A stretch of 31,079 nt of DNA from a virus. Made by a program: the position numbers and the translations under genes. Below, piece by piece: positions 1,054 to 11,844 of this stretch. How positions within the stretch are numbered: the stretch's first letter is position 1; each line of letters opens with the position of its first letter. The notes below the pieces were generated by a model, which saw nothing but the letters and a program-made list of their open reading frames with translations, did no database searches and was not told where the DNA came from. Where the stretch lies: positions 1-31,079 of the IMG/VR virus record IMGVR_UViG_3300041402_000484, one strand, 5' to 3'.

Positions 1054-1258
1054 CTTTTTCCTTCTCCTTGAATCTTGGATCATTGATAAGTTGTCTGGTG
1101 GCAATATCCATGAAGTCTGCTGTATCACACTCTGGACACTGAGGAATTTTTTCATTTGGTTGCACTCCCCATATGTGCATATTTGGAGGGAGGACCGTAT
1201 TGTACTCTCTTGGATCATATTCATACCCACATCGAAAACATTTAATTACCTCTGACAT
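1046..1258 (-). CDS. Small zinc-ribbon protein, 70 aa
   Basis: The start at 1258 (MSEVIKCFRCGYEYDPRE) is set by GGAGGGAGACG immediately upstream. An earlier in-frame ATG at 1321 would lie deep inside the upstream gene. Two CxxC pairs, CFRC near the N-terminus and CPEC about 30 residues later (PQCPECDTADF), form a rubredoxin-like or zinc-ribbon knuckle that probably binds one zinc or iron. The C-terminus is charged (RFKEKEKDD). It overlaps the upstream gene by 17 bases and the downstream gene by 8, so it is part of the tightly coupled string. Such short ribbons often mediate protein or nucleic-acid contact; no specific role is visible. Confidence 0.7.
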   Translation of the reverse strand: MSEVIKCFRCGYEYDPREYNTVLPPNMHIWGVQPNEKIPQCPECDTADFMDIATRQLINDPRFKEKEKDD

Positions 1259-1529
1259 CGTCTCCCTCCATCCTTGTAACTGTCCATGTAATTTTTGGAG
1301 CATCCTCTGATTTATTATCAAGCACCTCTCTGAGCACTTTAAGTATTAACTCGACTTCCGAACTATGTTTTTTGCTCAAGAAGGATTCTGGACAAAGGTC
1401 ACATCTAAAGGATTCAAACCCCTCTAGTATTTGTTCATTGCCTCTATAACTAAACTCTAAAGGATCAAAAGTTATTATCAACTTTCCCTTACTACACGCA
1501 GGACATAGCATTCCATGTCTGTATTCCAT
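1242..1529 (-). CDS. Small protein with MqsA/YgiT-like zinc finger, 95 aa
   Basis: The N-terminus carries CPAC (residues 9-12), then GKLIITFDPLEFSYRG, and about 35 residues on a second pair, FRCDLCPESF. That spacing, and the order C-x-x-C, G-K-L, beta strands, F-x-C-x-x-C, resemble the zinc-binding half of YgiT/MqsA-type proteins. The MqsA DNA-binding helix-turn-helix half is not obvious; the remainder is an acidic helical tail with VELILKVLREVL. No toxin partner is recognised next to it. TGAGGT lies ahead of the ATG, and the gene follows the 1866-1534 gene by 4 bases. It could be a phage regulator or simply a structural zinc protein. Confidence 0.65.
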   Translation of the reverse strand: MEYRHGMLCPACSKGKLIITFDPLEFSYRGNEQILEGFESFRCDLCPESFLSKKHSSEVELILKVLREVLDNKSEDAPKITWTVTRMEGDDVRGN

Positions 1530-1533
1530 AATT

Positions 1534-1866
1534 TTACCTCAAGGATTCATGGTACCAGATGTGAAATTTAGGACCTTCGTGCCCCTTTCTAAGACAATAA
1601 TCAAAAACTTTTCCTGCAGCATCATAGTTTTCATCTCCAAAGATAAGATTGTGACTTCCCTTACTCAGCGGGAATCCGTAACTTCTATTCAGAGAATCAA
1701 TTATCTGCTGTTGTGAGTATTTAAAGTCGTAACTTATCATCTGGGCAAGCAAGTCGCCCATCCATAAATGTTTCACAAATTCATCTGCAGTCAAAATATC
1801 AACGCGAACATCAATCATGTAAGACGTCGATGAACTATTAGTCACGAAATCTGCTTTCACTTTCAT
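1534..1866 (-). CDS. FVTNSSS-family protein 1, 110 aa
   Basis: This is one of five proteins in this block that begin with the motif K-x-K-x-D-F-V/I-T-N-S-S-S. Here the N-terminus is MKVKADFVTNSSSTSYMID. The ATG at 1866 has GGAAAT upstream and lies within the end of the membrane-protein gene (29-base overlap). The rest (DEFVKHLWMGDLLAQM, then an aromatic C-terminus ending FHIWYHESLR) shows no domain I recognise. There is no hydrophobic signal peptide. From memory, the same opening motif occurs on many otherwise dissimilar bacterial hypothetical proteins, where its purpose is unknown; a recognition or leader signal is a possible reading. Confidence 0.75.
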   Translation of the reverse strand: MKVKADFVTNSSSTSYMIDVRVDILTADEFVKHLWMGDLLAQMISYDFKYSQQQIIDSLNRSYGFPLSKGSHNLIFGDENYDAAGKVFDYCLRKGHEGPKFHIWYHESLR

Positions 1867-2233
1867 TTATTTCCATTACCCCCAAGTCCATGAGAAATAC
1901 CAACGCACGTTTAAACCTAAGGCAGATCCAGAGAGCTACAGTATTGGCAAATACGTCACCATGCATTGAAGCAATGACAGCTAGAAATGTATTAAGAATA
2001 ACCACGTTAGTTGTAATGTTAATATGTGTTGATTCATAGGGTGGTCGATACACAGTTAATGATATTGCAAAATAGAAAAACCAAAGCAGAAAGTATGCAT
2101 ATTGACCTTTGAACATTAATGGATAAAGAAAAAGTACACTGATGCTAACTAAGTATAATGGCGTATTTTTCACAAAAGCTGTCGCCACATCTACATGATC
2201 TACAACATCCCACCAATACTTTTTAAGAGTCAC
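1838..2233 (-). CDS. Small integral membrane protein, 131 aa
   Basis: I place the start at the GTG at 2233 because GGAGGGAGGTGATCTA precedes it. The in-frame extension to 2320 would run through the structured terminator-like element at 2255-2341 and is unlikely to be translated. The protein has three or four hydrophobic segments: LYLVSISVLFLYPLMF, FLLWFFYFAISLTVY, VVILNTFLAVIA and a less clear last one around ALWICLRF. The tail is charged (ESESRFRD). No holin hallmark such as a charged C-terminus with short paired segments is decisive, and it is not next to a lysis enzyme. The sequence element before it could attenuate its expression. Confidence 0.7.
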   Translation of the reverse strand: MTLKKYWWDVVDHVDVATAFVKNTPLYLVSISVLFLYPLMFKGQYAYFLLWFFYFAISLTVYRPPYESTHINITTNVVILNTFLAVIASMHGDVFANTVALWICLRFKRALVFLMDLGVMEINESESRFRD

Positions 2234-2254
2234 TAGATCACCTCCCTCCTTTAG

Positions 2255-2341
2255 AAAAAAAATTGTGCCCGAAGTGAAATGACCAGATTTCCGTCCTCTT
2301 TTGGAGGTTGGGGTCTGCAAGTCAAATCAACTCCGGGCACA
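2255..2341 (-). terminator. Structured RNA ending in a rho-independent terminator tail
   Basis: On the minus strand, bases 2341-2330 (TGTGCCCGGAGT) pair with 2275-2264 (ACTTCGGGCACA) as a 12-base-pair stem with one G-U pair, and eight T residues follow at 2262-2255. The enclosed 54-base loop is larger than in a normal terminator and holds a second hairpin (CCTC/GAGG, 2307-2295) plus possible GACC/GGTC pairing. The T-run ends about ten bases before the Shine-Dalgarno sequence of the membrane-protein gene. It probably terminates the transcript after the OmpA gene. An attenuator or riboswitch-like role is possible. Confidence 0.7.
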
Positions 2342-2370
2342 CTGTCAACTACCTCCTGGTAGTCTTTTAC

Positions 2371-3078
2371 TTATTCGTACACAATGATTTCAACTCGACG
2401 ATTTTTCTGTCGATTGAAGGGGTTGTCTCTTCCATCCACCCTATTGGGAACAACGGGGAAGAGTTTGCCTTGGGCCTTGATTGAATGAACCTGGGAAGGA
2501 TCTATACCCTTCTCAATGAGATACCTCACGGCTGAATCGGCACGCCTCTTTGAGAGACTGTTGTTATACTCGTCTGTACCAATCGAGTCAGTATTACCAA
2601 TGATAACAACTTTGGTACCGGGAGTGAGCATCATGTCCTCGGCCACATTGTCCAGAACCTCTGCTGCATCTGGTCTGATGTTGGACTTGTCGAAGTCAAA
2701 CAAAGCATGATCCCAACTAAGTACGATGGGGGCGGCCTCTTCAACAACAACAACAGCATCACAACAAGCCTCTTGTGCCTTGGCGAGAGCTTGCTTAAGC
2801 ATGTCAAATGCCTCTGCACTGCGACATTCTACCCATGCGTTATAAGCATCACCCTTCAACTTCTGCGCCTCGTTATAGACGTCGGGACAGTTTGTCAGAC
2901 CACGTTCACACTCCTTCAACTTCGCCTCAACCTCCATTAAACCATTGGTAAAACCCTGGTTCTCCATCTCAGTTGAGTAAACCTGAAGCGGCTGTTCTGG
3001 GGCCTTTACCTGCTTGGCACACGCCAATGGCATAATCAGTACGAGTGCCAGTAAAATTATTGATAATTTCCTCACCAT
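2371..3078 (-). CDS. OmpA-family peptidoglycan-binding lipoprotein, 235 aa
   Basis: Residues 1-20 form a signal peptide (MVRKLSIILLALVLIMPLAC) whose last residue is a candidate lipidated Cys; PLAC is an imperfect lipobox. A Cys-containing helical spacer spans about 30-115. The OmpA C-terminal domain follows (about 124-235) with FDFDKSNIRP, GNTDSIGTDEYN, LSKRRADSAVRYL and NRRVEIIV. These are the residues that bind diaminopimelate-type peptidoglycan in Pal and OmpA proteins, including an Asp of the N-T-D motif and Arg of the R-R-A motif. The ATG is preceded by AAAGGAGGAAGAGG. OmpA lipoproteins are common in Gram-negative cells but unusual on phage genomes. It may act at the envelope during infection or lysis, or be captured host cargo. 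Confidence 0.9.
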   Translation of the reverse strand: MVRKLSIILLALVLIMPLACAKQVKAPEQPLQVYSTEMENQGFTNGLMEVEAKLKECERGLTNCPDVYNEAQKLKGDAYNAWVECRSAEAFDMLKQALAKAQEACCDAVVVVEEAAPIVLSWDHALFDFDKSNIRPDAAEVLDNVAEDMMLTPGTKVVIIGNTDSIGTDEYNNSLSKRRADSAVRYLIEKGIDPSQVHSIKAQGKLFPVVPNRVDGRDNPFNRQKNRRVEIIVYE

Positions 3079-3097
3079 GTCCTCTTCCTCCTTTCAA

Positions 3098-4225
3098 TTA
3101 CTTGTTTTCACCAAACAAGAACCTGAACTTGACCTCTCCTGTTACTTTAAGGTTTAGATCAACCCTTCTGTCCACGGTGTTGAGAATTTTAGCAATTGCT
3201 TCAGTCGCTTGCTTGGCTATTTCCCCAACTCCCTCCCTGACCTCTTTTTCCAACTCCTTTAGTGATTGATCAATGTCATCTGCCTCAACCTTTGCCTCAG
3301 GTTCTACTTCAGGTGCTGCCGCTACAATTGGTTCTACTTTCTTATCGAATTTCGGACCACGTTTGTAGAACTCTTCAACAAATTGCTCAGTATTCTCAAA
3401 GCGGACGAATTTCATATTAAGTCTGCGTCTGTACTTCTTTTGTTTTCCAACTCCGATGTTTTCGATGATCATTAGATCGTGCATCCGGGAATCAATTCTT
3501 GAAACTAAACCTGCTGCTGAATGAAGAGTGATACCAAGAGCTTCGGCTACATCTGAGGACTCAACCCAGCCCTCATCACCTTCTACATTACCCTTTGCAT
3601 AGAGGAACCTTAAAGCTCTCTGCATTGCATCTCTTGCTTTGGTTGGTTTTGGTGTTGGTTTTGGTGTGACCACCTTCTCCTTTGCTTTCCTCTTGTCTCG
3701 ACGATAGTACTCTTCGACGAACTCCCTTGCACTGTCAAGTGGACAGTCATCAGTTACTCGTCTTAAGATTTTCTTGTCATCGAAGGAGTCTTCAATAAGA
3801 TCCCTCATCTTCCCGATAATAGCTGCCATTACTGAAGATGCTGAACTCTTAGGAATCTCAAGGTGCTCAGCAAGTTCTGCTGTACCTATCAGTTTCCCAG
3901 TTCTGTACGTCTCATCGAAGAGGAAAGCTAAACCTCTTACTGTCCTTTCGGATCTTCTTATTTTTACCATGTTTAACATCCTCTCGAACTCAATATCGTT
4001 AATTTCATCTTGGCTTAAAAGTCTAACTGGTCCGTGTTTACCCCTCCTTTCTGTTCTTTTTATGTATTTAGCTTTTATGTGCTTCTTGACACCCTTGTTA
4101 ATAACTTGCAGATCTTCTTTGATTGATTCTCTTATTTCGGCACAAACTATAGGCAGGTTGTTTGGGTCAAGTTGCACGCCATCTAAAGTAATACCCTTCA
4201 AATTTGGAGTAGTATTTCGTTTCAT
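3098..4225 (-). CDS. Protein with two winged-helix-like repeats, 375 aa
   Basis: The protein contains an internal duplication. Repeat 1 (about 96-176) has TAELAEHLEIPKSSASSVMA and ends REFVEEYYRRDK; repeat 2 (about 202-290) has SSDVAEALGITLHSAAGLVS and ends EQFVEEFYKRG. Each has the spacing of a helix-turn-helix within a winged-helix fold. A Lys/Pro-rich linker (TPKPTPKPTK) separates them. A predicted coiled-coil at about 318-350 and a short beta-like end (VDLNLKVTGEVKFRFLF) complete the chain. The N-terminal 90 residues are basic. DNA binding is inferred from the repeats; a transcription regulator is the likeliest role. The ATG follows AGAGGAGAGCAGGG, and a 237-base noncoding stretch with a nine-C tract lies directly upstream. 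Confidence 0.75.
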   Translation of the reverse strand: MKRNTTPNLKGITLDGVQLDPNNLPIVCAEIRESIKEDLQVINKGVKKHIKAKYIKRTERRGKHGPVRLLSQDEINDIEFERMLNMVKIRRSERTVRGLAFLFDETYRTGKLIGTAELAEHLEIPKSSASSVMAAIIGKMRDLIEDSFDDKKILRRVTDDCPLDSAREFVEEYYRRDKRKAKEKVVTPKPTPKPTKARDAMQRALRFLYAKGNVEGDEGWVESSDVAEALGITLHSAAGLVSRIDSRMHDLMIIENIGVGKQKKYRRRLNMKFVRFENTEQFVEEFYKRGPKFDKKVEPIVAAAPEVEPEAKVEADDIDQSLKELEKEVREGVGEIAKQATEAIAKILNTVDRRVDLNLKVTGEVKFRFLFGENK

Positions 4226-4462
4226 CCCTGCTCTCCTCTAATAGGGGGGGGGAAGAAAAGGGGTTACAATCCTTATTTCCAAGGCGTGGACCCCCGGCCA
4301 CAACTATCCTTATCATGCACCTATTTTAAGACTAGATCTGCAAAGATTTTCCGGCACGACCAGATCGAAGTCTTCCCACAGGATTGTAGGCAGGTTCAGA
4401 GGAGCTTCGTGCCAACCACCTAAGGTGAGATTTAACAAGGTGGCTACTGGGGAGATAAACTG
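4226..4462 (-). other. 237-base noncoding leader with several stems and a C9 tract
   Basis: No credible gene lies here. On the minus strand there are several possible stems: CCACCT/AGGTGG near the upstream end, GGCACGA/TCGTGCC enclosing about 47 bases, and GTGG/CCAC around CCGGGGGT (4302-4287). Close to the gene at 4225 is a pyrimidine run that includes nine consecutive C (G on the plus strand, 4245-4253). It is the longest gap inside the accessory string and probably a 5' untranslated leader of the winged-helix gene or a separate small RNA. I found no tRNA fold and no known riboswitch signature. Confidence 0.4.
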
Positions 4463-5254
4463 TTAGTCAAGAAAAGTTACGCCGGCATTCCAACGTCCCT
4501 CAAATTCTCGATTCATTATAACAAGGTGCCAGTCTCGGAGTTTAACAGTTTTGTGATCTGGATGGGTTATGGAACCCCTTGCGTAAACACTATTCACTCT
4601 GACCATCTCTTGCATAATCTTGCTGCCATCTTTATTTAAACGACCTGTTTCAACGAGAGCTGTACTTGAACCTGTTGTCCTTACAATCTCTGAGACCATA
4701 TGGGGTGTACCACCCATTCGACCACGGACCATCCTGACTAAAGGTTCATTGTTGTGAATGAAATAATTTTGCTTGTCAAAATCTGGTTGAGGAATAAAGT
4801 ACCATTCTCCCTGTCTTATAACTTTTGTACCCCTCCTTTCTGCTTCTCTGACAGGATTTCTTTTTAAGCTCTCGATAGCTTGCTCAACGGTCGTTATTTG
4901 AGCATCGCTTGGTAAGCTAGCGACAAAATACTCCCTCTCATCATGACCACAAAGGAGACGATCAATGATACCTGGTTCGTTCTCAATCCCAAGTACAACA
5001 TGACGAGTCTCAGGTCGGTACGAGAGAATCTTTATACGCTCGTGATTATCAATGAAAAGAATAAACTTTTCAACCCTTTTCTTGTGATCACGAAGAACAT
5101 CCATGGTAAAAGATGGATCTGGTTCTCTAGTAAAACTCCTTATCCTTCGATTCCAGGCATTCTCAGCCTCACCTCTATCATTACGAATATCAATTTCGAG
5201 GTTGCACCGTTTAAAGTGTTTCTCCAACACTTTCTTCCAGTGGTCGTATTGCAT
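4463..5254 (-). CDS. Conserved phage/bacterial protein of unknown function, 263 aa
   Basis: The ATG at 5254 (MQYDHWKKVLEK) is preferred because GGAAGGGATTTCAG precedes it. A longer frame to 5326 lacks a ribosome site and overlaps the upstream gene by 116 bases rather than 44. The N-terminal third is helical and charged. The C-terminal part contains GEWYFIPQPDF, HMVSEIV, then VYARGSITHPDHKTVKLRDWHLVIMNRE. The pattern R-G-x-x-x-H-P-D-H-x-T-x-x-L-x-x-W-H-x-x-x-x-N recalls an uncharacterised family seen in phages and actinobacteria (memory only). The conserved His and Asp residues could bind metal, but no function is known to me. Confidence 0.75.
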   Translation of the reverse strand: MQYDHWKKVLEKHFKRCNLEIDIRNDRGEAENAWNRRIRSFTREPDPSFTMDVLRDHKKRVEKFILFIDNHERIKILSYRPETRHVVLGIENEPGIIDRLLCGHDEREYFVASLPSDAQITTVEQAIESLKRNPVREAERRGTKVIRQGEWYFIPQPDFDKQNYFIHNNEPLVRMVRGRMGGTPHMVSEIVRTTGSSTALVETGRLNKDGSKIMQEMVRVNSVYARGSITHPDHKTVKLRDWHLVIMNREFEGRWNAGVTFLD

Positions 5255-5636
5255 CTGAAATCCCTTCCATTTGTTTTTCGCTAAATTTGGCCAATCTTTC
5301 TCTGATCTTATCAATGTGTGCTTCAATGTTTACGATTACATATGGAGCACCAGCAGGAGTATCGACTTTCTGCACGATTACTTTTAACTCACTAAGAATT
5401 CTTAGAGTGTAGTCAAATGCTCGTGGACAATCATCGTACACATCTGAACTTATACTCCCATCCATCATAAGTATATTAAATGACTCGATAACATCATCTA
5501 TGTGAACTTCTGAACTATCGAGGATATTAGCATGTTCACGTATACTGAGGTAATTCTCAATCTTAAAATCACTTGGTAGAATAACTATGTAATTGACGGA
5601 CGAACTATTCGTCACAAAATCAGATTTGAATTTCAA
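5211..5636 (-). CDS. FVTNSSS-family protein 2, 141 aa
   Basis: The start is a TTG at 5636, set by GGAGGGAAAG just upstream and by alignment to its paralogues; the N-terminus is M-KFKSDFVTNSSSVNYIVIL. It is the closest relative of the 6659-7081 protein: both continue with L-P-x-D-F-x-I, a helical middle, an E-L-K/N-x-I-V strand followed by D-x-P, and an I-D/L-x-R-x-K/R-E tail. The body beyond the motif is therefore also homologous between these two. It overlaps the next gene by 44 bases. No enzyme signature, membrane segment or Cys pair was seen. Confidence 0.75.
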   Translation of the reverse strand: MKFKSDFVTNSSSVNYIVILPSDFKIENYLSIREHANILDSSEVHIDDVIESFNILMMDGSISSDVYDDCPRAFDYTLRILSELKVIVQKVDTPAGAPYVIVNIEAHIDKIRERLAKFSEKQMEGISDAIRPLEESVGETL

Positions 5637-5647
5637 CTTTCCCTCCG

Positions 5648-6016
5648 TTACTGGGTGGATATTGATTCAAATTTAACACTCTTAAGTTTCTGTAAAAAGA
5701 AATGTGACAAATCTGGTCTAACATTAATATGTTCTAAAACTATATGTTTCATATAGTATGGAACATTGTCGTAGTCATTGAACATTGAGGTAGAATCTTC
5801 CAACTTGAAGTTTCTATCATTGAGCATTATAATCGTAGGTTGAAAGAATCTCATATGCTTAAAATCATTTCGGTAGCTGTAAGTCCTCATTAGACTCTCC
5901 ATGTACTCCCCAAAGAGATCGAAGAAACTATCGAGGGTAAAATCCTCTGTCATCTCCAGATAGAGATAGAAATTTGCAGAGCTACTGTTGGTTACAAAAT
6001 CACTTTTTATTTTCAT
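5648..6016 (-). CDS. FVTNSSS-family protein 3, 122 aa
   Basis: The ATG at 6016 begins MKIKSDFVTNSSSANFYLYL and is preceded by AAGAGATT; it overlaps the upstream zinc-protein gene by 17 bases. After the shared motif the sequence diverges: an acidic helical region (EDFTLDSFFDLFGEYMESL), many aromatic residues (FKHMRFFQP, VPYYMKHIVLEH), and a basic end. It has no detectable similarity to the bodies of the other family members, so the shared N-terminus is the only common element. There is no signal peptide or transmembrane segment. Confidence 0.7.
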   Translation of the reverse strand: MKIKSDFVTNSSSANFYLYLEMTEDFTLDSFFDLFGEYMESLMRTYSYRNDFKHMRFFQPTIIMLNDRNFKLEDSTSMFNDYDNVPYYMKHIVLEHINVRPDLSHFFLQKLKSVKFESISTQ

Positions 6017-6311
6017 AATCTCTTATCCACTCGTCACCCTTCTCATCCCGAATTCTTGTGAATATGTGGGCACACCTTCTGCACTTAATAAGGGTTGCTG
6101 AACTCAAAAATATTATTGATCTAATAGCTTCCCCCCCACAGTCAGGACATATTTTCATGTCTGTTATCAGATAAGTAAGTTTGTCATGGTTCATTTCAAG
6201 TTTATCACATGGACTAGAACAGTTGGCATAAACTATGCACTCGGAACATGGAAATCCATTTGGTATTACCAATTCAATCGGAAGATTCATCTTATAGGTG
6301 AGGGAACTCAT
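6000..6311 (-). CDS. Zinc-binding small protein, 103 aa
   Basis: I set the start at the ATG at 6311 (MSSLTYKMNLP) because AAGGAGTGTGGAG lies upstream. The open frame extends to 6389 but that part lies inside the previous gene. Cys clusters are FPCSECIVYANCSSPCDKL (C-x2-C-x5-C-x3-C) in the first half, and CPDC plus IKCRRC in the second half, the latter a zinc ribbon. The first cluster resembles a C-x2-C-I-V motif common in short phage proteins. It overlaps the upstream gene by 20 bases and the downstream one by 17. A structural or nucleic-acid-contact role is plausible but unproven. Confidence 0.65.
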   Translation of the reverse strand: MSSLTYKMNLPIELVIPNGFPCSECIVYANCSSPCDKLEMNHDKLTYLITDMKICPDCGGEAIRSIIFLSSATLIKCRRCAHIFTRIRDEKGDEWIRDYENKK

Positions 6312-6693
6312 CTCCACACTCCTTATAGTAGCTATCATCATTGTAACTGTGCGGAAACATTCTGTCATCCATATCAGAAACGGATTCATCTCTCAATACC
6401 CACACTACCCATCTGTGTTCTGTCTCTTTAACATAATGGAGGACGTGTGAATATAGTTGTGATTGATAATCTTCTTCCGCAACCCGATCTTTAGTATGCA
6501 CAATGGCATCTATGTAGCCATGTATTGCTGCCCTGATGTGATCTGTATTATCCCACTCTCTACCATAGGACTCCAGATATGCCTGGGCCTCTTCCTTTGT
6601 GTATATGGTATCTGGATCTTTGTAATACTTCTTCCAGTTGATAATAAAGGCAGTAGAGCTACTGTTGGTCACGAAGTCTTGTTTTATCTTCAA
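6292..6693 (-). CDS. FVTNSSS-family protein 4, 133 aa
   Basis: The start is best placed at TTG 6693: it has GGAGG five bases upstream and gives M-KIKQDFVTNSSSTAFIINW, matching the family register exactly. A TTG four codons earlier (6705) would use part of the ribosome site as coding sequence. The body is acidic and aromatic, with YTKEEAQAYLESYGREW, a His-rich middle and WVVWVLRDESVSDMDDRM. No known domain is apparent. It overlaps the next-upstream family member (6659-7081) by 35 bases, so the two are adjacent and coupled. Confidence 0.7.
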   Translation of the reverse strand: MKIKQDFVTNSSSTAFIINWKKYYKDPDTIYTKEEAQAYLESYGREWDNTDHIRAAIHGYIDAIVHTKDRVAEEDYQSQLYSHVLHYVKETEHRWVVWVLRDESVSDMDDRMFPHSYNDDSYYKECGDEFPHL

Positions 6694-7081
6694 CGAGTCC
6701 TCCAATCTCCTTTACTCTATCAAGGATTTTAGGTACACCAACATTGAGTATACTGTTATTACCCTCATGAGGTATGTCGTAGTCTGTTACTATAAGGTTG
6801 AGTTCTTTACAAATATCTATCACAATAAATATGTAGACTCCACCGTCCTCCCACATGCCCTCAAGTATGCTCCCTTGTTCAAGAAGTACTTCAAAGAAAT
6901 GCTCTATTTTGTCAAGTTCTATTTCACTAACTCCACCACCACCAATATACCCTTCAAACTGATTGAAGATCCCACCTTTCTCTAGCATTGATAGGTTGTC
7001 TTGTATCTGAAAATCCTTTGGTAGCATAATAATATAGGAGTGGGAAGAACTATTGGTTATGAAATCTGCTTTGATCTTCAC
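6659..7081 (-). CDS. FVTNSSS-family protein 5, 140 aa
   Basis: Translation starts at GTG 7081, which overlaps the stop of the acetyltransferase gene (GTGA) and has AGGAGGAGAA upstream. The N-terminus is M-KIKADFITNSSSHSYIIML. The body resembles protein 2 (5211-5636): L-P-K-D-F-Q-I, helical middle with HFFEVLLEQGSI, ELNLIVTDYDIP, and an I-L-D-R-V-K-E-I tail. A GGGG run interrupts the middle. Overlapping start and stop codons with a GNAT gene suggest both are made together. No function is known; the pair 2 and 5 looks like an old duplication. Confidence 0.75.
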   Translation of the reverse strand: MKIKADFITNSSSHSYIIMLPKDFQIQDNLSMLEKGGIFNQFEGYIGGGGVSEIELDKIEHFFEVLLEQGSILEGMWEDGGVYIFIVIDICKELNLIVTDYDIPHEGNNSILNVGVPKILDRVKEIGGLVEDKTRLRDQQ

Positions 7082-7452
7082 TTCTCCTCCTTTGGAAATC
7101 TAACAACTACGTGATCTGTTACTTCGACGAATCCATATTTCCCAAACCACACTTTCAACTCCTCTAAATTCATTCTTCCATAGGGGTTTATTGAATTGAG
7201 AATTGCAATGCCCCTTTCGTCACAAATTTCAATTAAGCGTTTCATTAAAATCGTACCGTGACCCCTTCCTTCTTTTCTTGATTTTATTCTATGAAAGAAG
7301 AATAGGGGATATGGACACTCCATTTCATGTCCTAACAAAAACTCTTTGTTTGTCTCCATGCCAAATATTGAGAGTTCACAAATTGCCATTTCGTTAGTTG
7401 TTAAGCAAATAACTTCGTCGTTAATTATTTCGCGTTCTATCTCCGGTTCCAT
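7078..7452 (-). CDS. GNAT-family N-acetyltransferase, 124 aa
   Basis: GNAT enzymes transfer acetyl from acetyl-CoA to an amine. The acetyl-CoA-binding motif A is visible as RKEGRGHGTILMKRLIE (R-x-x-G-x-G, residues 59-64). It is followed by a beta strand (GIAILNSINPYG) and the typical C-terminal KVWFGKYGFVEV motif in which the aromatic and Gly-F residues close the fold. The protein is short but complete for a single GNAT domain. The ATG at 7452 has AAGGAGTCAAAACT upstream. The substrate is unknown. Its GTGA overlap with an FVTNSSS-family gene makes that family a candidate partner, though a host or other phage target is equally possible. Confidence 0.85.
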   Translation of the reverse strand: MEPEIEREIINDEVICLTTNEMAICELSIFGMETNKEFLLGHEMECPYPLFFFHRIKSRKEGRGHGTILMKRLIEICDERGIAILNSINPYGRMNLEELKVWFGKYGFVEVTDHVVVRFPKEEK

Positions 7453-7464
7453 AGTTTTGACTCC

Positions 7465-8466
7465 TTAAAAATCAAATGGACACCTTTCTTTGTTCTCCTC
7501 CAACATGAGTCTAGTTTGCACAAATGCATGACTTTGTTTCCATGCATCCTCAATTGATATATTTTCAAGAGATATTCCATACTTGTCCTTATCTGCAAAT
7601 GAACATGGCATAAATATCATGTCTGGACTTATATAGCATGACATACGAGCAGCCTCACAAGTATCAAGAAATATCTCCTCCAACTTAGTTAAAGTCGTGG
7701 TCTGTGAAAGTTTATTGACTAGGCATGAGTCCATACCAATTTTGAAATTTGTCTTTCCTTCCAATCTCAGGTCCATAAACTCCTTCAAGTCTTTGTTTGT
7801 CAAGATCCAGTCTTTTAGTTCTCTCCCCCTTCCCTGAGGTTTGAACAGTAAGAAAATGACAGCATTTAATCTGTCTATATCAATCTTTCCATCCCAAACA
7901 TCCTTGCCTTTGAAGATATTTACTGCTTTCTCTAGAGATTTTTTAGACAAAAGGAAATGTAGATTTGTCTTTATATCAGAATCCATCAACCTCTGTAAAG
8001 CAGAATATGAAAAATCTTGACTATAATCTGACACAGCAACGGCCCCGCACATCTTTGATATTTCAATGTGATCGCTTGTCAATCCTAAACCAGATGTTGT
8101 GTAGTTGGGAACAACAATGTTTTCCCGAGCATACTCAACAATATCTCCAAAGTTTTCATGTAGGTTTGGGTCCCCCCTTCCACCTAGAGCTACCTGGTTT
8201 GTATAGGTTTTAGATTCATCTATTATCCTCCTGAAGTCCTCAAGTTTCATGTTTGGTTGTTCTTGACCACCTTGATAGCAAAATTTACACTTGTTTAGAC
8301 AATGACCCATAATCCCAATATCAATTAGATTTGGATAGTCCAGCATGAAAGGATCAGGAAAACCAGATTTCCCAAAGGTGATCTCTTTACCATTTGCTAC
8401 ATTAAAAATAATTACATACCGATCCGTCTCGATAATCTTCTTTGTTCCAACCCTTCGTGCAACCAT
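7465..8466 (-). CDS. Radical SAM enzyme with Cys-rich C-terminal extension, 333 aa
   Basis: The iron-sulfur motif C-x3-C-x2-C is at residues 56-63 (CLNKCKFC), followed by Y-Q-G-G and a G-G-x-G-D-P motif (ALGGRGDPNLHENF), as expected for the SAM-binding part of the barrel. The C-terminal third carries further Cys residues (DTCEAARMSC, MPCSFADK, ERCPF) with the N-I-S-I-E-D-A-W pattern typical of SPASM or twitch extensions that hold auxiliary clusters in peptide- and protein-modifying enzymes. The ATG follows TTAGGAGGGAAG. The neighbouring acetyltransferase, FVTNSSS proteins and arginase-like gene make peptide or protein modification a reasonable guess; the actual substrate is unknown. Anaerobic or microaerobic host metabolism would suit it. 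Confidence 0.88.
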   Translation of the reverse strand: MVARRVGTKKIIETDRYVIIFNVANGKEITFGKSGFPDPFMLDYPNLIDIGIMGHCLNKCKFCYQGGQEQPNMKLEDFRRIIDESKTYTNQVALGGRGDPNLHENFGDIVEYARENIVVPNYTTSGLGLTSDHIEISKMCGAVAVSDYSQDFSYSALQRLMDSDIKTNLHFLLSKKSLEKAVNIFKGKDVWDGKIDIDRLNAVIFLLFKPQGRGRELKDWILTNKDLKEFMDLRLEGKTNFKIGMDSCLVNKLSQTTTLTKLEEIFLDTCEAARMSCYISPDMIFMPCSFADKDKYGISLENISIEDAWKQSHAFVQTRLMLEENKERCPFDF

Positions 8467-10641: not shown

Positions 10642-11844
10642 ATGTTTGTTGAGACAACAAATGTTCAGAACTCTATACTTTTCCTCGGTACTGCAAGGGA
10701 AACTCTTTCAAATTTGATTGAGCAAACTGAGCTAGAGGAAAAGGAAAGTCTGAAGAATCATATTATGAACGAGGCCTCAGACTTTGAAATTCTTCATGCC
10801 ATTGTGTATGAAGAATTTCCGGCCCTAGATGTTAAGTATGATGTTTTCGATGAAATGGTTCTTATGAGTGAGTTTAAGAATCTAATTCTCGAAGACTATT
10901 TTGGCATCTGTAGTGTAGTAAATGAGGATATTATAAATGAGTTTATACACACTGTGGATACAGTTACCCCTTATGGTCTCTCGACTGCTCTTCCAATAAT
11001 TGAACACACAACCAAGACACATTTTTCATTTGATGAAGTGAAATTTTGGACGAGACTTGAAGAGCACTATACTACAGTTTTGGCTGAACAAGCAGAAGAT
11101 CCATTTGCTGCGGCTAAAGGGATAGACCCTGCTAAGATAAAGGCGGCCATTGCTGCTGTCGGTGCAAAAATTGCTACAGGAAAAGAAGACATTAAGAAGC
11201 TTGCAGTTGCCGCAACAAAGAGGAAAGAGGCTCTAAAAGTGGCCTTGGCAGACAAGGATAAAGTACAGATAACCAAACTTCAAGGTGCTTTACAGAAGTC
11301 TAATCAGAATTTTCGGGGTGCTGTACAAACAAATAAGGATCTGATAGCCAGACAAAGTAGCCTCAAACATAGTCTAAGACTAGCATACCAGAAAGCTAGA
11401 GCAGGAGCTGGTGCTACTGCTGCTGCTGCTGGTGCAAAGACTGTGGCTGCCTTGCAGGCAGTTGGGGCAAAGACTGGTGCTACTGCTGTGGCCACAAAGG
11501 TTGCTGCTGCTGGTGGTTATACACTAACACCTGCTGCTGCCGCTGCTGGCGGTGGGGCTGCTGTTATAATTGGTGGTGCTGCTCTTGCTGCTTTACTAGG
11601 TTATGCTTCAGTTAAGACTTACAAGAGACTGTTTGGCAAATGGGCAAAGATGTGTGCTGGCAAGAAGGGTGCAGAGAAAACTGCCTGTATGAAGGAAGCT
11701 AGATCCAAAGCACTGCAGGCACAAGTTGCTGATCTCCAAGCAGCGTTGAAAGTATGTGCTGATTCGAAAGATCCGAAAAAGTGTTCCAAGGGAGTTGCTG
11801 GAAAACTTGGAAAGTTAAAGGCAAAATTAGTAAAAATCAAGTAG
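10642..11844 (+). CDS. Virion-associated protein with Ala/Gly-rich hydrophobic segment, 400 aa
   Basis: The first half is acidic and helical. Residues about 155-345 are Ala/Lys-rich, with long Ala-Gly runs and a clear membrane-like stretch (GGGAAVIIGGAALAALLGYA). The C-terminal part has two Cys pairs in a repeated layout, KMCAGKKGAEKTACM and KVCADSKDPKKCSKG, likely disulfides or metal sites. This composition is common in phage proteins ejected with DNA or embedded in the host envelope, but I cannot name a family. It lies between tail tube and hub genes with TTAGGAGGATAATT ahead of its ATG. The low-complexity GCT runs in the DNA are coding. Confidence 0.7.
   Translation: MFVETTNVQNSILFLGTARETLSNLIEQTELEEKESLKNHIMNEASDFEILHAIVYEEFPALDVKYDVFDEMVLMSEFKNLILEDYFGICSVVNEDIINEFIHTVDTVTPYGLSTALPIIEHTTKTHFSFDEVKFWTRLEEHYTTVLAEQAEDPFAAAKGIDPAKIKAAIAAVGAKIATGKEDIKKLAVAATKRKEALKVALADKDKVQITKLQGALQKSNQNFRGAVQTNKDLIARQSSLKHSLRLAYQKARAGAGATAAAAGAKTVAALQAVGAKTGATAVATKVAAAGGYTLTPAAAAAGGGAAVIIGGAALAALLGYASVKTYKRLFGKWAKMCAGKKGAEKTACMKEARSKALQAQVADLQAALKVCADSKDPKKCSKGVAGKLGKLKAKLVKIK

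Follow-up and report, generated by a model that had tools for sequence, protein, structure and literature searches.

A shared N-terminal Asn-Ser-Ser block on unrelated phage proteins as candidate substrate tag of a co-encoded radical SAM enzyme

The viral contig from IMG/VR considered here, 31,079 bases long and referred to as a whole as the window, covers part of a contractile-tail phage genome and encodes a terminase and baseplate wedge proteins. On its minus strand, five genes open with MKxKxDF(V/I)TNSSS, and directly upstream of these block genes lies the gene for a radical S-adenosylmethionine (SAM) enzyme (7465..8466, minus strand, 333 aa). We consider it probable, at roughly three chances in four, that this N-terminal block is the substrate tag of the dedicated radical SAM enzyme, which would radical-modify the residues N10-S11-S12. 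A preliminary description of the window had put the block forward as a possible signal for recognition, processing or modification shared by different cargo proteins, a proposal that now finds support in the mixing of serine codons, the unrelated bodies, the retention of the block in homologues and a co-occurring enzyme.

All five open reading frames (ORFs) are present on the minus strand with the starts first given, at 1866, 5636, 6016, 6693 and 7081. A DNA pattern for D-F-V/I-T-N matches the window five times, always within these genes, against 0.02 matches expected upon shuffling, and a search of the 31-kb record for the FVTNSSS pattern gave no match beyond the five. The start codons are ATG at 1866 and 6016, GTG at 7081 and TTG at 5636 and 6693; as the three non-ATG starts are preceded by GGAGG 4-5 nt upstream, the block can be taken to be the true N-terminus. 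The serine codons read AGTTCATCG, AGTTCGTCC, AGTAGCTCT (twice) and AGTTCTTCC, just as originally listed, and the block is real and longer than was first given, extending to M-K-x-[RK]-x-[GD]-F-V-[ST]-N-S-S-S-[ST]-S-[FY]-[IV]-[IV]. Two of the early statements need amendment: the five genes are not all adjacent, the one at 1866 being set apart from the other four by 3.3 kb, and the bodies behind the block diverge into four families only, those of 5636 and 7081 being paralogous members of one.

To follow the block across genomes, 635 distinct proteins were assembled: viral contigs were scanned twice by pattern, and members were added from a collection anchored on the enzyme and from annotated phages. 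In this sample the shared start comprises 16-18 residues with the consensus M-K-[I/V]-[R/K]-x-[G/D]-F-V-[S/T]-N-S-S-S-[S/T]-S-[F/Y]-[I/V]-[I/V] and no conservation beyond it, residue 7 being Phe in 631 proteins; the carriers are many large phages, the cultured KP15, KP27, RB43, RB16 and Lw1 among them, and a few archaea and spirochaetes. Conservation at the protein level, as proposed from the window, is borne out by the mixture of AGY and TCN codons at every block serine across 629 proteins (336 to 293 at Ser12). As the sample was selected by motif, a separate search was conducted with body profiles that exclude the block, and 449 of the 458 homologues found by body profile alone carry it nevertheless; in related phages the block is thus conserved. 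N10, S11 and S12 are identical in 447 of 447 aligned homologues from this search, with variation at positions 7, 9 and 13-15 (GFVGNSSS, DFATNSSS, CHVSNSST). Positions 1-18 of the block hold no conserved cysteine, and the conserved tag is also devoid of Trp. The isolated block has no match in Pfam and NCBIfam, phage records searched by tblastn with an entire block protein gave chance matches to staphylococcal lysins only, and phrog_7397, the function of which is listed as unknown, covers some block proteins (22 of 60 representatives).

The bodies behind the block are unrelated. After removal of the block, 620 bodies fell into 142 BLAST clusters, 97 of them single, and profile-profile comparison of the 26 largest families gave one weak pair above 60% probability; full-length homology among all five window proteins was looked for and is absent. 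No conserved motif was detected across the bodies, almost none of which is recognised by Pfam. Block proteins are mostly 80-270 aa long and reach 423 aa in a block-bearing leucine-rich-repeat protein of Lokiarchaeota encoded directly behind the enzyme gene (L342:2640-3911). In the AlphaFold model of the window protein starting at 1866, residues 1-10 have a predicted local distance difference test score (pLDDT) below 50 and a confident alpha/beta body begins at residue 13; the block of this one modelled protein is predicted to be a flexible tag ahead of a folded body, for which a fold search of the PDB gave no match.

A co-occurring enzyme family, which the preliminary description had suggested looking for, was found in the radical SAM enzyme with a SPASM/Twitch-like C-terminus. 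Upon clustering of the other ORFs, one radical SAM cluster is the commonest neighbour, being present in 56 of 121 block loci with the next cluster at 12. A search with the enzyme only recovered strict block genes in 53 of 80 window-like viral loci, in 70 of 80 loci of a second enzyme clade and in 7 of 9 cellular contigs, as compared with zero block genes in a reversed-sequence control of 2.7 Mb; relaxed motifs add four block loci (L333, L343, L318 and L319). Among contigs of at least 83 kb, the enzyme is found at E < 1e-100 in 35 of 41 with block genes versus none of nine control contigs, some of which are shorter than the block-bearing set; one initial control (G065, locus L105) turned out to hold two block genes and was reassigned to that set. 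Block genes share the strand of the enzyme gene in all 110 viral loci with both scored and are often arranged in tandem, a genome with one enzyme encoding as many as 10 tagged proteins; relatives of the window of 224-277 kb likewise hold five block genes and the enzyme. In the Straboviridae, which as one clade are counted as one event, the enzyme was counted in 172 records of isolates and its two tag genes in 175 records and 174 records respectively, with a nearly equal breakdown by host genus. Spirochaete chromosomes carry the enzyme gene with one or two block genes as a stand-alone operon of 2-3 genes among housekeeping genes, no phage genes having been recognised beside the inspected pairs, and the only two pattern matches in one 2.6-Mb spirochaete genome are both directly behind the enzyme. 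In Asgard genomes the enzyme-block pair recurs within about 1.5 kb.

The window enzyme, proposed as the block-modifying enzyme on the basis of Pfam, PHROG, Foldseek and neighbour statistics, reaches the cut-off of Pfam Radical_SAM PF04055 (29.5 bits for both) and is a member of phrog_7293 (E 8.8e-31), with the function listed as unknown. None of the NCBIfam radical SAM equivalogs fits, the best scoring 40.7 bits against a cut-off of 500. C56, C60 and C63 of the three-cysteine [4Fe-4S] motif CX3CX2C are invariant in 85 aligned enzymes, the first cysteine spacer being longer in some relatives, and so are the C-terminal C248, C270, C288 and C329, of which C270 and C288 align with cysteines of SkfB and SuiB. 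The enzyme model (pLDDT 95) has its best Foldseek match in SuiB (5v1t, E 4e-13, template modelling score (TM) 0.72), followed by SkfB (6efn), and further matches are CteB, PqqE, EpeE, anSMEcpe and viperin. Residues 2-32 of the model consist of four beta strands with no helices and thus do not form the N-terminal winged helix-turn-helix known as the recognition element (RRE) of ribosomally synthesised and post-translationally modified peptides (RiPPs). In two further phages, the radical SAM ORFs (L046:3795-6128 and L093:3162-5519) contain an intein-like insert of approximately 400 aa, which interrupts a conserved stretch after GKLFQCL or GKMFQCL.

Residue 9 of the block co-varies with the clade of the enzyme. 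Enzymes with CYQ after the cluster motif pair with T9 blocks in 142 of 142 proteins and those with CYK pair with S9 blocks in 379 of 379, counts which include duplicate copies; each of the ten largest body families holds both block types, and the type always matches the enzyme of the same locus. That around ten unrelated gene families stay in step with one enzyme would be best explained by shared selection from that enzyme. Asgard and spirochaete genomes hold a third enzyme clade, which has CYR, or else CYK in other flanks, and which likewise adjoins block genes of the DFVT type (L368:1132 and L360:1560).

In the mechanism proposed, phages would translate 2-10 unrelated small tagged proteins, usually from genes lined up in one orientation next to that of the enzyme. 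This enzyme would bind the flexible tag, with recognition through [RK]4, [GD]6, F7, V8, [ST]9 and [FY]16, and would then radical-modify the invariant N10-S11-S12 at the junction of tag and body, such that the shared tag may allow one enzyme to act on many unrelated accessory proteins. We infer that the tag, which may be modified, cleaved or only bound, is the substrate, and that the site lies within it because one enzyme serves up to ten proteins with only the tag in common; the modified residue would be found within N-S-S, as this triplet is invariant. A cysteine-dependent thioether in the tag is unlikely given its sequence, and oxidation, an ether or C-C crosslink, epimerisation and backbone cleavage are the candidate chemistries. 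Anaerobic sulfatase-maturating enzymes (anSMEs) and their like oxidise Ser or Cys. Among relatives of similar fold, some form crosslinks of the C-C, thioether or ether kind and others epimerise residues (PMC8326336). From the occurrence of the modified proteins in large phages, our guess is that their role is an accessory one, in host takeover or otherwise.

Several observations weigh against the block being a substrate tag of this enzyme. The CYQ and CYK clades split once on the enzyme tree, so that the match with S9 and T9 represents one deep split across many gene families and not many independent switches, and in one of the third-clade loci (L360:1560) an enzyme with CYK goes with a T9 block. 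With respect to co-occurrence, 6 of the 41 large block-bearing contigs have no full-length enzyme (one has a fragment), 27 of the 80 window-like enzyme loci hold no strict block in the stretch examined, where most contigs are fragments, and in the Straboviridae the enzyme and tag genes are not adjacent but approximately 20 kb apart. Structural modelling of a block protein covers the single protein at 1866. Finally, Pfam SPASM PF13186 scores 15.2 bits on the window enzyme, below the cut-off of 21.5, although the four C-terminal cysteines are invariant; the window enzyme ends earlier than those relatives that possess an extended cysteine-rich tail, which is more in keeping with Twitch than with full SPASM, and a second auxiliary cluster seems to be optional in the family.

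Alternatively, the block may be a leader-like docking sequence only, with the enzyme modifying residues in the differing bodies as in leader-dependent RiPPs. Its position at the extreme N-terminus is that of a leader, streptide maturation is strictly leader-dependent, and the leader of CteB binds the RRE and not the active site (PMC8326336). The bodies, though, have no detectable common motif and their folding is either predicted or likely, and the invariant N-S-S, small, polar and located at the junction, has more of a reaction site than of a docking helix or strand, which makes docking alone unlikely. The block could also constitute a localisation or interaction signal, for virion packaging, phage-nucleus import or host-protein binding, in which case the link with the enzyme would have some other cause; many unrelated cargoes sharing a flexible, conserved N-terminal tag do call a sorting signal to mind, and most carriers are large phages. 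The stand-alone operons of 2-3 genes on spirochaete chromosomes, the pair standing together in Asgard archaea and the co-variation of tag residue 9 with the enzyme clade render such a signal rather improbable.

PqqE depends on PqqD, a separate partner that serves as RRE in trans (PMC8326336), and the model of the window enzyme has no RRE-like N-terminus, which would accommodate block proteins as partners and not substrates, the tag inserting to activate the enzyme or to deliver it elsewhere. A single enzyme facing as many as 10 tagged proteins in a genome accords better with many substrates than with many adaptors, among which a common fold would be expected, and we judge this reading to be very improbable. 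Ordinary paralogues with the common N-terminus as a remnant of duplication are scarcely credible: tandem arrangement is frequent and 5636 and 7081 are indeed paralogous, but a single weak profile pair came from the 26 largest body families, the block changes little where the bodies have no common sequence, the serine codon classes are mixed and one body is a leucine-rich-repeat protein.

Among known systems, the SPASM/Twitch RiPP maturases SuiB, SkfB, CteB, PqqE and EpeE provide the nearest solved folds to the window enzyme and, like the system described here, combine a radical SAM domain with C-terminal auxiliary cysteines and encode the enzyme together with its putative substrate(s). Their substrates are short leader-core precursors, whereas the candidates here are proteins of approximately 80-420 aa with unrelated bodies, and their N-terminal RRE-like winged helix is not in the window-enzyme model, although an RRE in trans is possible. 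RiPPs arise from a short precursor with the leader removed; the candidate substrates are long, and one is confidently folded in its model. Sactipeptide and thioether maturation needs a cysteine donor in the substrate, which block positions 1-18, with no conserved Cys, do not provide. Cumulatively, the system resembles SPASM/Twitch peptide maturation but falls outside the RiPPs on the form of the precursor and the RRE.

The anSMEs, which are also SPASM radical SAM enzymes and are represented among the fold matches by anSMEcpe, modify Ser or Cys in proteins of folded size. Their substrate motif, C/S-x-P/A-x-R, is absent from the block consensus, and an anSME serves one protein family, whereas the block enzyme would serve many. 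Viperin (pVip) has the radical SAM core in common with the enzyme, as reflected in a weak PADLOC match of 25 bits and the Foldseek matches, but SuiB and SkfB match better, and viperin nucleotide chemistry ill fits the C-terminal auxiliary cysteines and the link to tagged proteins. The PHROG entries phrog_7293 and phrog_7397 already group the phage enzymes and some block proteins, respectively, yet their listings draw no link between the two, and the phage parts are on record only as PHROGs listed with unknown function. In the open-access full texts, preprints not included, no description was found of the block motif, of the enzyme-block pairing or of phage radical SAM maturases with substrates; FVSNSSS and SNSSSSSF are absent from these texts, and the sole paper with FVTNSSS concerns hemp peptides.

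We hold it to be evenly balanced whether this is an undescribed protein-tagging system in which one radical SAM enzyme installs a new modification at the invariant Asn-Ser-Ser of an N-terminal tag on well over 100 unrelated families, by which mainly large phages would arm many accessory proteins at once and of which a minimal two-gene unit would exist in spirochaete chromosomes and Asgard genomes. It would bring together large-phage 'hypothetical proteins', unrelated to one another and numbering in the hundreds, in a single system for which both the enzyme and the stretch of residues can be named. Biochemistry would also gain a practical tool in a short, portable tag by which a radical enzyme is directed to any chosen protein. 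Should phage accessory proteins be under the control of the modification, many would be silenced at once by deleting one gene.

Within the window, the block genes are all on the minus strand and were assigned by ORF list and body clustering, their blocks by pattern match. Block protein 1 (1534..1866, 110 aa; block 1813..1866, MKVKADFVTNSSSTSYMI), the modelled protein with residues 1-10 below pLDDT 50, belongs to body family 7, whose 25 members come from phages with one block type or the other. A homologue of this family on the plus strand of another locus (L315, around position 11250) has the decayed sequence VKIINNSTFII, possibly a pseudo-tag. Block protein 2 (5211..5636, 141 aa; block 5583..5636) is of body family 5 and starts at TTG with GGAGG 5 nt upstream; block protein 3 (5648..6016, 122 aa; block 5963..6016) is of body family 8. 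Block protein 4 (6292..6693, 133 aa; block 6640..6693), of body family 16, starts at the TTG at 6693, again with GGAGG 5 nt upstream, and overlaps the end of block protein 5 (6659..7081, 140 aa; block 7028..7081), the paralogue of block protein 2 in body family 5, which matches phrog_7397 at its N-terminus and whose GTG start overlaps the stop of the upstream gene.

A cysteine-rich ORF within the run of block genes (6000..6389, minus strand; from neighbour clustering) is kept only in close relatives (8 loci), and a small GNAT-like ORF (7078..7452, minus strand) with a weak Acetyltransf_1 match of 14.7 bits, below the cut-off, separates block protein 5 from the radical SAM gene. Both were considered as partners and dropped, the cysteine-rich ORF because it is confined to close relatives, and the GNAT-like ORF (7 loci) as a general partner because it is confined to close relatives of the window. 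Two other readings were rejected: the Straboviridae enzymes as counter-examples with no block gene nearby, once a search of whole Straboviridae-type records had found two tag genes some 20 kb off, and Buttiauxella phage GuL6 as a case of natural tag loss, where the match was merely trimmed and both tags and the enzyme are intact.

In Slopekvirus and Pseudotevenvirus, the two tagged genes flank the gene for a protein of approximately 740 aa with von Willebrand A (vWA) and MIDAS features (L357:1327-3543, KP15_100, and L351:2612-4858); vWA-like genes are also located near block genes in L013, L034, L051 and L116, and a functional link to the block genes is possible. In the window itself, a small ORF directly downstream of the 1866 block gene (1242-1529, minus strand) scores barely above the Pfam cut-off for the MqsA antitoxin, and an OmpA-like protein with a lipoprotein-type start (2371-3078, minus strand; phrog_7897) is an unusual cargo for a phage.

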